DNA from: Liolophura sinensis
Taxonomy: Eukaryota; Mollusca; Polyplacophora; Chitonida; Chitonidae
Direction of reading: 5' to 3'
DNA: 64,000 nucleotides
NCBI RefSeq assembly: GCF_032854445.1
Contig: NC_088300.1
Location: 32,347,608 to 32,411,607 of the forward strand
Numbering within the stretch: position 1 is the first letter of the stretch; each line of letters starts with the position of its first letter. The position numbers and the translations under genes were made by a program. Shown here in pieces: positions 18,201 to 24,200 of this stretch. Below the pieces are notes generated by a model, which made no database searches, had not been told where the DNA came from, and saw nothing but the letters and a program-made list of their open reading frames with translations.

Positions 18201-21200
18201 CGATGTGTCACAGAGAAGGGTAATATGGTTGACGGATTTGTTTTAGGTGGGTTATGCTCCTCATTATTTCCATTTGTGAGCAGTACATTCCTGTCAACTT
18301 CATGACACAATCAACTGGTGAATTTACTGTGTCAGTCTTGAAACAGTTGTAAAATCATTTAACAAGAAAAGAATTTACACAAATCCACTCAGTTTCAAAA
18401 CAACCTTGTCTTATTCATTAAGAGCTTTTGCCATTAGCTCCATGGAAATACCTTTCACAGGAATACGGCGTAAAACACCAAATAAATAAATAAATAAATC
18501 TCTTTCACAGTAATTAATCATGGCAGCATAAAGTGCTTTGTTGCTGAAACATTAGTCCACTACACCAAACAATGAACTAGGAAATGAAAACGAGTTTTGA
18601 TTTGGGCAAACTTTCTTATTATTAACTACACACAAGGTGACAACAAAAGGTTTCTTTCTACTGATCTCCATTTGTGTGGGAGTCAAAATCTACATAATAT
18701 GTTCTCTCAGATGATCATCCAACACATATTTATATAGGGAGTGTCATATACATGTAGGCTTCATGTAAGTTGACAAGAAAATGTAATGTAATTAATTAGC
18801 ATCATCTATCCTATTTGTCAACAGTGGGGATTTCCAATGTAAACAGCCAGTGAACCATAAATTGATTTCTGCTTTGCTCTTATGCAAGGAAAATGCATGT
18901 TTATTAATGTTTTTTTTTAATTTCATTAAGAAGCAAGGATTCTCAATCAACCTGAAAAGAATTAATAGTATTTTCTATCTTGTTCCTTTAACAAGTGCCT
19001 CATGGTTACCACCCACCTTGTCCAGGTAGCCCAGGTGATTTTGTTGAAGACATCCTTTTCTTCCGCCAGCTTCCCACTCGGTACAGCAAACACCTGCTCC
19101 ACATAAGCACCTGTTCCTACCTGTAACACACACAAACAGTTTCATAATGACACTAATGGCAAACTGACAAGGTGTCAAAAGGTTGGCGTTATACAACACT
19201 CCTACATCATAGTTGCACGGCAACAGAAAAAAAATACATTCTCTTCAAGGTCAAATTAGCACACGTAGCAGAGCTGATACTTGAGATCCAACTCATTTTC
19301 CGGCTGAAGCAAAAAAAGTATACAGGAGAGTTACATTTAGATGTAACTACAATTATGCACTTTGTTTCATTTGCACTGTGAATATGTATCAGATCAAGTT
19401 GGCAAGTTGTGGCATCACAGTCTATGTAGTTCTGTGCAAAGAATAAACTCCAGAGAGTTACAGCCAATAACAGCCATCTGAGTTAACATTTTATACATGA
19501 AACAAACAACCATTCTGAAAGAATTGCATCTGCAACACGTTCCCTTACGGTTTGCCTTAACTTTGTTGAGAATGGAAAAAACTGTCCGAAATTCACACGT
19601 GATTTGTAAGTCTGTGAAAACATCCACAAATTTTTTTGAAACTACCAAACAAATGGTAAACGATAGCCTGCTGAAGTGTAACTGGAGCTTAAAGCAGTAC
19701 ATGGTTGTTGGTTGGTTGTTTTTTCCTTACACAAACTTGGGGGCAATATGATCATGCATTACCATTTGAGTCTAACAAATAAATCAAGCAAACCGCCCAA
19801 TAACATTACCTAGCAATGAACAGCATAAGATTGTGCTTGCCCTAAAACACTGACTCGTCAGCAGAGGAGTCCAGCTGGATCACAAAACTGGGGGGTTCTA
19901 AGTAACAGATCTAGCAGAAAATCACATGACATTGTGCTTACCACATATCTGATGTCAGCAGAGAACCACATAACACTGTGCATACCCTCACATACTGACT
20001 GTCAGTACAGAGCCACATAACATTGTGCTTGTCCTCACACACTGACTGTCAGCAGAGAACCACGTACATGTAACATTGTGCTTAACCTCACACACTGACT
20101 GTCAGCACAAAATGACATAACATGGTGCTTACCCTCACACACTGACTGTCAGCTGAGAACCACGTACATGTAACATTGTGCTTAACCTCACACACTGACT
20201 GTCAGCACAAAATGACATAACATGGTGCTTACCCTCACACATTGACTGTCAGCTGAGAACCACGTACACGTAACATTGTGCTTAACCTCACACAATGACT
20301 GTCAGCACAGGATCGCATAACATTGTGCTTGCCCTCGCATACTGACTGTTAGCACAGAACCGCATAACACACATTGTGCTTAACCTCACGCAATGACTGT
20401 CAGCACATAACCACATAACATTGTGCATACCCTCACATATTCACTGTCAGCACAGAACCACATAACATTGAGCTTACCCTCACATATTCACTGTCAGCAA
20501 AGAACCACATAACATTGTGTTTGCCCTTGCATACAGACTGTCAGCACAGAACCACATAACATTGTGCTAACCCTCACATACTAACTGTCAGCACAGAACC
20601 ACATAACATTGTGCTTACCCTCACATATTCACTGTCAGCACAGAACCACATAACATTGTGCTTGCCCTTGCATACAGACTGTCAGCACAGAACCACATAA
20701 CATTGTGCTAACCCTCACATACTGACTGTCAGCACAGAACCACATAACACACATTGTGCTTAACCTCACGCAATGACTGTCAGCACATAACCACATAACA
20801 TTGTGCATACCCTCACATATTCACTGTCAGCACAGAACCACATAACATTGAGCTTACCCTCACATATTCACTGTCAGCAAAGAACCACATAACATTGTGT
20901 TTGCCCTTGCATACAGACTGTCAGCACAGAACCACATAACATTGTGCTAACCCTCACATACTAACTGTCAGCACAGAACCACATAACATTGTGCTTACCC
21001 TCACATATTCACTGTCAGCACAGAAACACATAACATTGAGCTTACCCTCACATATTCACTGTCAGCACAGAACCACATAACATTGTGCTTGCCCTTGCAT
21101 ACAGACTGTCAGCACAGAACCACATAACATTGTGCTAACCCTCACATACCAACTGTCAGCACAGAACCACATAATACTGTGCGTACCCTCACATACTGAC

Positions 21201-24200
21201 TGTCAGCACAGAACCACATAACATTGTGCTAACCCTCACATACTAACTGTCAGCACAGAACCACATAATAATGTGCATACCCTCACATACTGACTGTCAG
21301 TACAGAGCCACATAACATTGTGCTTGTCCTCACATACTGACTGTCAGCAGAGAACCACATAACATTGTGCTTACCCTCACATACTGGCTGTCAGCAGAGA
21401 AGTCCAGCTGGATGACAAAACTGGGGATTCCATTACAGTATCCAACACGGTTAAGAGCAGGACCCTGGCTGATGTCGTAGATATCCACATACTTATCCTC
21501 TGTCCCCACTACCAGGTATTTCCCATTTGGGCTGAACCTGTGTCCCAAGAAATATAAACACAACAACAGAAATTAAAAGATCTACTATTCCATGCAAACA
21601 TTTTAGATACAATGTTACAAACAGCATAACATAATCTGAGATGTTCATATGTATTAAAGCTAAAGTGTAAATTTAAAGTTTTCTGTTTCAAAATTGAATA
21701 TCATTTGTACACAATAAGCAGAAAAATAAGGTAAATGCTCGTGTAGTTTAATACCAAAATAATATCATTATATATTACAAAGAATACACTTTGAACTTTC
21801 AATAATCCATTTGTTCTGTATTTTTTTTTCTTTTTAGGGATCAACTTGTTTCTTACAGACGAGAAAAAATTCAAAATTTGATAATGGAGTAAAACTGTCT
21901 AACCTTAAGTCATTAACAGACCCGGCCCGGTCCCTTCGTTTGCCCCACATCTTTAGGCCATTACTGTTGAGAACAATGACTTCTCCATTTTGGAGGCCAA
22001 CCGCAATGAGCTCTCCATCATGGCTAAAGCAAACAGATCTAGCGGGTCCCACCACCAGCTTGGCCACAGATGTCTGTAACATTCAAGGAAACCATGAGAG
22101 AGGCAGAATCTGGAAAGTTCTAATCACTGATTATCTCACAGTGCATCTGCATGATTGAGAGTTGCCATTCACCGGTCTTTTGATTATCATATTGATACTC
22201 CGAAGAATACATGTACAAGTATGTATGCTTGGGTTTTCACGTGGTACTTAACAATTTTTGAGTCATATAACAAGGAAGAATCATTAGGTGCGTGTATATA
22301 CTATATATCTTCTTGTAGGAGGACAAGTCCAAAGTGCTGCCGCCACTGACGTATCATGCCAAAGACACCATACCTGACACCCTACTCACTCACATTACAC
22401 TAACAATGGGACAACCTCTCTCCTTGCTGTAACCCCTCAGTGCTAAGTGACAAGCAAGTCAGCAACAAGCACAATCTTTAAAGTCTTTGGTATGACCCGA
22501 TCTGGGTTCGATCTAACCACTAGGCCACTGCAGTGGTTCATATTCCAATGAAGAGGACCTGCAAGGTTGCATAGGTTACAAGATCTTCCCATTATAACAT
22601 GCTCCAGGTAATGAACTTTCCTCACTATCAACCATGGTAAATGAATTTTAACCTTAGACTTGTAAAGTGTATCCCATGATTCACTGTATTGATTGTGGTT
22701 CTTACTGAAGAGCATTGGCCCTGATCAGGGGATAATATAGAAGTTCCAGTCTGTAATCCACAAGCCCACATTTCACTGAGCAGTTAGTCTATGCTCCTGC
22801 CACCAACAGATCATGTTTTCCTCAGTTTTAATCATAATGAATTCAGTACATAGAGGATTACTTCACAAAAGGAGCACCTTGATTGTTTTATGATCACCAT
22901 TTTATGATGAAAAAGAATTCACTAGAAAACTCTGGAGATTGAAGAGCGTGAGCATGACCACCCAGTAGCTTTACACATGTGGAGTGGCATGTCAAATATC
23001 TATTAATATGCATGCGGAACTATGTTTTCTACGTTTACTGGAGGTGTTCTTGATTGCAAAATGCAGGAAAGGTAACTCTTCTGCAATAGGAAGAGAATGA
23101 CAAACTTGATTCAAATTATACGGATGGTTGCTGACAGATATTTCTCATTGAAATCCATTTGTAGCACAAATACACATGTACACATAAATGTTGCATAATG
23201 AGGGCTCAGAATAGACAACTGTTAACAAGATAATGTTGTGACATGACTTCCACGTTACCCGAACAACTGTTCGTTGTTTTCAGGAATGCAGTGTACATTA
23301 TCATATTTGTACTAACTGGTATGAGCGTGGATCGAGTGTTTGGAATCTACTAGTTAGCAACAGTCACCCCCTGACTTCATACTTTCTTCATTTTAATTCA
23401 TGGCTATAATTATATTATATTTTAGCAATTAGGAACCATAACCAGGGCAATGAAATGGGCGGCAGGCTAATCACACACTTCTGTCATCTTGCCACTAACT
23501 CAGCCCGTGAGAAAGTAAACAACAGTACCGTCGGCCGAAACTTTTTATCATTTAGCGTACCAACATCTTATCCATTTATACTATGTCCAGGTCTCTTACC
23601 AGATGTTATTTTTGCACTTCTGTTTTTTCCTGTAAAGCAATTAGCTGGTCAACAAATATGACAATGACACACAAGATAATAATATGTATATTGGGACTGA
23701 CTAAATACGTAATGGATACAATCCGGTTAAAAGCACACCTGAAAAAGTAAAACTACAGCAGCAAAGTTTACACTGATCAGAACGAAACTATTTAATGTCC
23801 TGATTACCGGGAATGACAACTCACCTTAGTTTGTAGATCCCAGAGTCTGACAGACCCGTCATAACTAGCAGTGATGAACTTAGGCTGGCTGGGGTGAGGA
23901 TACAGGCCCCAGACCTCCCCTTCTCCATGGGCAGAAACAACCACCTGAGCAGAACCACCCTTCTCCCCTATCTCCACCACAGAATTCTCTTTTGTACCCA
24001 CCAAGATCTTACCCTGTTAAAAAAACAACAGAAAAATATAAGGCTTTATGTTGATTAATGAATTTTTTTCTCTAACCTCAAGATTTCCTTGAGATTAACA
24101 ACAGCAGTCTGGGTCAGCAATTCAAACAATGATAAAAATGTTCTATCCCGAATATGTAAGCCAAATAACGATTATACTGTTTTACCCAGAACAAATAAAC

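Follow-up and report, generated by a model that had tools for sequence, protein, structure and literature searches.

A splice donor repeated about 31 times beside its exon: a mirage-type minisatellite in an EML-like gene of the chiton Liolophura sinensis

The presence of a minisatellite that repeats a splice donor, directly at the edge of a coding exon, raises the question of where such copies come from and how a gene can accommodate them. The array considered here lies in a 64,000-nucleotide stretch of the Liolophura sinensis genome (NC_088300.1, positions 32,347,608 to 32,411,607; hereafter the window, whose own numbering is used throughout), within an EML5/6-like gene on the minus strand. 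The assignment of the gene is based on three HELP motifs and EML beta-propeller matches among its exons, together with a match to the solved EML1. The host exon (21375–21537, minus strand, predicted ends), called exon 32 in an earlier note on this DNA, is the 29th among at least 31 exons identified and belongs to the second EML beta-propeller, with the C-terminal end ...DSQYVR. When it is joined to the next exon (19017–19120, minus strand, predicted ends), the combined peptide matches PF23414 in Pfam (E = 2.5e-21). The authentic donor, GTAAGC at 21369–21374 (minus strand; 21374 is the first intron base), was predicted from reading frame and homology. Splicing from 21374 to 19120 would be a phase 0 junction across which the reading frame carries on, and the EML match extends into the next exon when the two are joined at this first donor, which is presumably the site used in splicing. 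The predicted intron is 2254 bp in length, 1452 bp of which is minisatellite.

The minisatellite itself (19923–21401, minus strand) begins within the exon, so that its first unit (21348–21394, minus strand) straddles the true exon end together with the donor. Tandem Repeats Finder (TRF) confirmed the 47-bp period, with 31.0 copies, 83% matches and a score of 1905, and a wrap-around alignment resolved 31 full units; the count is about 31 rather than the 32 or so of the earlier note. Alignment of the units bore out the description of each as the last 20 or so bases of the exon plus the donor: a unit consists of 20 nt of exon end and 27 nt of intron start, with the donor inside. The similarity to the exon end exceeds the chance-level resemblance that would have spoken against this origin, as the consensus differs from the first (exon) unit at 2 of 47 bases, the exon part is identical at 19 of 20, and matches are confined to the locus. 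A 78-bp array probe searched against the 609-Mb genome returned 30 matches, all within the 47-bp array, and a 161-bp exon probe matched only itself and the decayed copy described below, placing the exon once in the assembly (the search skips very common words in both cases). The unit evidently arose at this locus, its sequence pointing to its own gene as the source. Identity of individual units to the exon unit averages 88% and does not change systematically with position in the array (Spearman −0.20, p = 0.30).

The state of the splice signals in the units is mixed. The earlier statement that many units keep their donors holds for part of the array: GT is in register in 19 of 31 units, the full GTAAGC occurs in nine (true donor counted) and GTATGC in four, but the remaining 12 have lost GT in register, five of them carrying a shifted AG/GT and seven neither. 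Scoring each unit as a splice site gave a similar picture, with eight of 31 (again counting the true donor) equal to the real donor and a ninth nearly so. Of the 47 six-base windows in the unit, only two vary more than the donor hexamer, so that nothing suggests the unit donors are maintained. In the second unit, the donor position lies 47 bp downstream of the first, out of frame and beyond a stop, and its GT has been lost.

The far end of the array holds clues to its history. As the earlier note had recognized, a longer, decayed copy of the exon (PSFVIQLD) is located there (19812–19911, minus strand), comprising the exon end, a former donor that now reads GCAAGC, and the intron start. Read from 19911 to 19812, this copy of about 100 bp aligns to the exon end, donor and intron start with 81 identities, 15 mismatches and 5 gaps; its exon portion is 48 nt longer than that of the unit, and its upstream 20 or so columns are weakly conserved. 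The proposed order of events, duplication of a segment followed by amplification of its inner part, is supported by this arrangement, in which an exon containing A and B is followed by n copies of B and then by A′ and B′; the two-step order would follow from the geometry of the layout. The resemblance between the sequence after the last unit and that after B′ does not exceed chance, with about 33% of random intronic segments reaching the same score, and the junction therefore adds no further proof of the order. The higher-order repeat of about 380 bp was also verified: 20718–21043 and 20338–20663 (both minus strand) are 98.8% identical over 325 bp at a shift of 380 bp. Given this identity, the block, which spans at least 325 bp, was probably duplicated late compared with the divergence of the units. 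A 7-bp direct repeat, TTCTCTG, lies just before the first unit (21395–21401, minus strand) and equals the last 7 bases of that unit (21348–21354), and its occurrence at both edges of this unit fits what is expected from slippage or microhomology at the seed.

Combined, these features make it quite probable that the array is a mirage, the product of an ordinary minisatellite birth that happened to span an exon end and donor and was tolerated, with an unchanged mRNA if the first donor is used. A segment of about 100 bp, containing the exon end, donor and intron start, would have been duplicated in tandem, after which slippage or microhomology would have amplified the inner 47 bp to about 31 copies between the two segment copies, and a block of units of about 380 bp would then have been duplicated again. 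All of the extra copies are intronic and would be removed by splicing at the first donor, leaving the mRNA the same; under such use the array would be near-neutral and free to grow and decay. No special machinery would be needed in a genome that makes minisatellites freely and in which donor-spanning seeds can be tolerated, and most likely the array has no function and persists as a by-product that a genome rich in minisatellites tolerates.

Mirages are known from amphioxus, where tandem, minisatellite-like repeats of an exon-intron boundary, with AG/GT signals in many though not in every unit, are described in passages of two reports (PMC3087553, PMC3902484) for Adh3, troponin C, the globins BflGb6 and BflGb9, and PGBD5, and where they are said to leave regular splicing apparently undisturbed. 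Like these, the chiton units combine an exon end with adjoining intron and keep GT in register only in part, and the unit is local to its own gene. Unlike amphioxus BflGb6, for which the passages give haplotypes with six and three units, the chiton array reaches about 31 copies and contains a higher-order repeat. The host is also a mollusc, and the frequency could be estimated over 271 predicted splice boundaries from two gene families. A related phenomenon, internal tandem repeats at exon-intron boundaries, is described in a report on human segmental duplications (PMC2812944) and similarly involves minisatellite expansion across the boundary. The human repeats differ from one paralog to another and may give rise to new introns or alternative transcripts, whereas the chiton copies lie inside an existing intron. 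Likewise, tandem duplication that creates a new intron has the duplicated splice-signal sequence in common with the chiton locus, where the start of an intron has instead been multiplied. Among the titles, abstract starts and passages of the PubMed Central matches listed, no report of a mollusc mirage was recognized; the excerpt on an abalone intronic minisatellite (PMC6905558) states no relation to a splice site. By its testable sequence features the chiton array is a mirage and, as far as the literature was searched, one in a new phylum.

The array does not stand alone. An additional donor-seeded array in the same gene, implied by the earlier note, is real (37454–37681, minus strand; 19 bp × 12 by TRF) and has the boundary TCCCCAG/GTGAGTCTGACA with the donor at 37674. 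Elsewhere in the genome, an exon matching PF02906 (Fe-hydrogenase family, E = 2.3e-13), presumably of a CIAO3/NARFL-like gene, carries a donor array with a 40-bp unit and at least 39 copies that runs up to the end of the stretch examined. This exon came from a set of arrays selected by the donor motif alone. For 16 such arrays and 16 control loci, a Pfam scan of upstream peptides gave one of ten donor-motif loci (the PF02906 exon) and none of ten control loci below 0.001, and 15 of the 16 sampled arrays, of which ten were covered by the scan, had no tie to a known protein family; a codon-usage score of the flanks did not separate the donor-motif arrays (1/16) from the scorable controls (1/15) and missed the proven exon as well. 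Within the EML gene, a copy of the boundary was found within 1500 bp at two of 30 donors and none of 29 acceptors. Random intronic points of the gene matched as well (108/600 and 103/600 in the two directions), indicating that arrays are common throughout its introns.

As a less biased count, exons of the myosin and kinesin families were taken from a profile search (80 of 81 myosin rows, some with internal stops, and 70 of 132 kinesin rows, namely those listed without internal stops). At the best-scoring predicted splice sites, a fixed 50-bp boundary segment was compared at a fixed score cut-off with the adjoining 225 bp of intron (1500 bp in the EML test), leaving out loci that lacked a site above the score cut-off, duplicate boundaries, and those with insufficient flanking sequence. 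In the first count, 10 of 115 predicted donors had such a copy, as did 3 of 137 predicted acceptors, compared with 16 of 112 interior points on the donor side, 13 of 132 on the acceptor side, and none of 252 shuffled controls. Ten further kinesin exons contributed 0/10 donors and 0/9 acceptors, for a total of 10/125 predicted donors and 3/146 predicted acceptors (p = 0.042; 271 boundaries in two gene families). Removing two doubtful donor hits (L117 and L070) reduces this to 8/125 versus 3/146 (p = 0.12), and counting only TRF-confirmed donors to 7/125 versus 3/146 (p = 0.19). The kinesin set by itself shows no asymmetry (2/47 donors versus 1/59 acceptors, p = 0.58). Adding the EML gene brings the totals for the three gene samples to 12 of 155 predicted donors, against 3 of 175 acceptors.

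In seven donor cases, TRF on wider stretches (on the original stretch for L106) identified arrays of 2 to 17 copies that extend over the boundary; examples from the myosin and kinesin exons include units of 124 bp × 7.6, 63 bp × 17 and 66 bp × 8.1. At another donor case (L062), TRF showed no array at the boundary. Arrays also extend across predicted acceptors, in one myosin exon (L070 and L186; 32 bp × 43) and one kinesin exon (L121 and L185; 64 bp × 12), and for a further acceptor case (L067) the boundary lay just outside the stretch given to TRF. Acceptors fall below the interior points on their own side (p = 0.009), while the difference between donors and the interior points on theirs is not significant (p = 0.21). 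Because arrays are no rarer at interior points than at donors, donors need not be preferred seeds. The asymmetry between donors and acceptors, not significant under the stricter counts, is suggestive only. With a seed that spans an acceptor, the exon copies would come to lie ahead of the true start of the exon, from where they may be taken into the mRNA, and the lower acceptor count fits such an exposure, though the statistics are weak. It is possible, and can be offered only tentatively, that a sizeable share of exon ends head donor-repeating minisatellites while acceptors are largely spared, as a reflection of splice-site choice. Where donors are repeated, the first would be used, leaving the copies in the intron; among repeated acceptors, the first AG encountered would be chosen, so that exon copies would become part of the mRNA and face negative selection.

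Other explanations for the array can be weighed against these data and a genome-wide motif scan. The donor sequence might be a preferred site of minisatellite birth, for instance through transcription- or U1-linked breaks or R-loops. Three CAGGTRAG motifs at minisatellite spacing have 2474 matches genome-wide versus 438 for the backward motif, a ratio of 5.65, whereas the single motif has 60104 versus 23704, a ratio of 2.54. The remaining factor of about 2.2 would be in line with preferred birth at donors, but it is rough, as these are counts of overlapping matches and not of arrays, and each pattern had a single backward-motif control. Triples of the acceptor motif TTTTNCAG number 1344 versus 764 backward; these raw counts carry no weight in the argument. 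Two of the seven intronic arrays of the EML gene sit on donors, for which a rough post hoc p of 0.017 was obtained from rounded inputs; against this, copies in the exon-based sample were no more frequent at donors than in intron interiors, and preferred birth at donors is on balance unlikely.

It is less likely still that the array is functional, with its many U1-binding sites acting as a splicing enhancer or a block to premature polyadenylation, or with downstream donors yielding stop-containing mRNAs in regulated unproductive splicing. The units that score like the real donor would suit such a role, as would the enrichment of donor-motif triples past the single-motif ratio, but the donor positions are among the most variable of the unit, over a third of the units have lost GT in register, and 28 of the 30 donors of the same gene do without such an array. 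Insertion of a transposon, introner or satellite family beside the exon, with an accidental resemblance to it, is hardly credible even in a genome rich in arrays and dispersed repeats: the unit and exon probes match only this locus, the units of other exon-edge arrays derive from their own exons, and the genome probe search, which skips very common words, found none of the dispersed unit copies at unrelated loci that are a hallmark of introners and transposons. Tolerated minisatellite birth across the exon end thus remains the preferred reading of the locus.

In the literature passages (PMC3087553, PMC3902484), mirages have so far been a cephalochordate phenomenon. Their occurrence in several genes of a mollusc, at a rate that can be counted, suggests that mirages arise generally where minisatellites are born in genomes rich in introns and repeats. 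Natural genes with rows of near-identical donors offer a direct test of whether the first or the nearest donor is used, and the chiton arrays similarly allow for a test of the proposal, made in a passage of PMC3087553, that mirages supply new introns. Should the tentative reading of donors and acceptors be true, the genome would represent a standing natural experiment in the competition among dozens of near-identical donors.

Several additional repeats were observed in the window and the genome. A dispersed repeat with a common open stretch occurs in several introns (17974–18242, 40148–40378, 41095–41307 and 44512–44694, minus strand), and overlapping reading frames at 58117–59056 (minus strand) resemble, by eye, a broken Tc1/mariner-type transposase. 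One contig (C99) contains the mitochondrial genome as head-to-tail copies of about 15.5 kb, with seven COX1 matches there and one on a second contig (C632); this series is probably an assembly artefact. The mitochondrial gene order, ND3-ND2-COX1-COX2-ATP6 as judged by eye, fits a lophotrochozoan; amphioxus, which the mirage literature had suggested as a source of the DNA, was rejected partly on this order and on a search that gave no GFP-family hit, the latter not conclusive by itself. A 35-bp array of at least about 269 copies extends to the end of the 10-kb stretch examined (L034, C1:90006700–90016699). Within the window, a 43-bp array of 69 copies (59949–62923, 95% matches) has a strong GC skew and is open in long minus-strand frames of up to 582 amino acids, since 43 is not divisible by 3.
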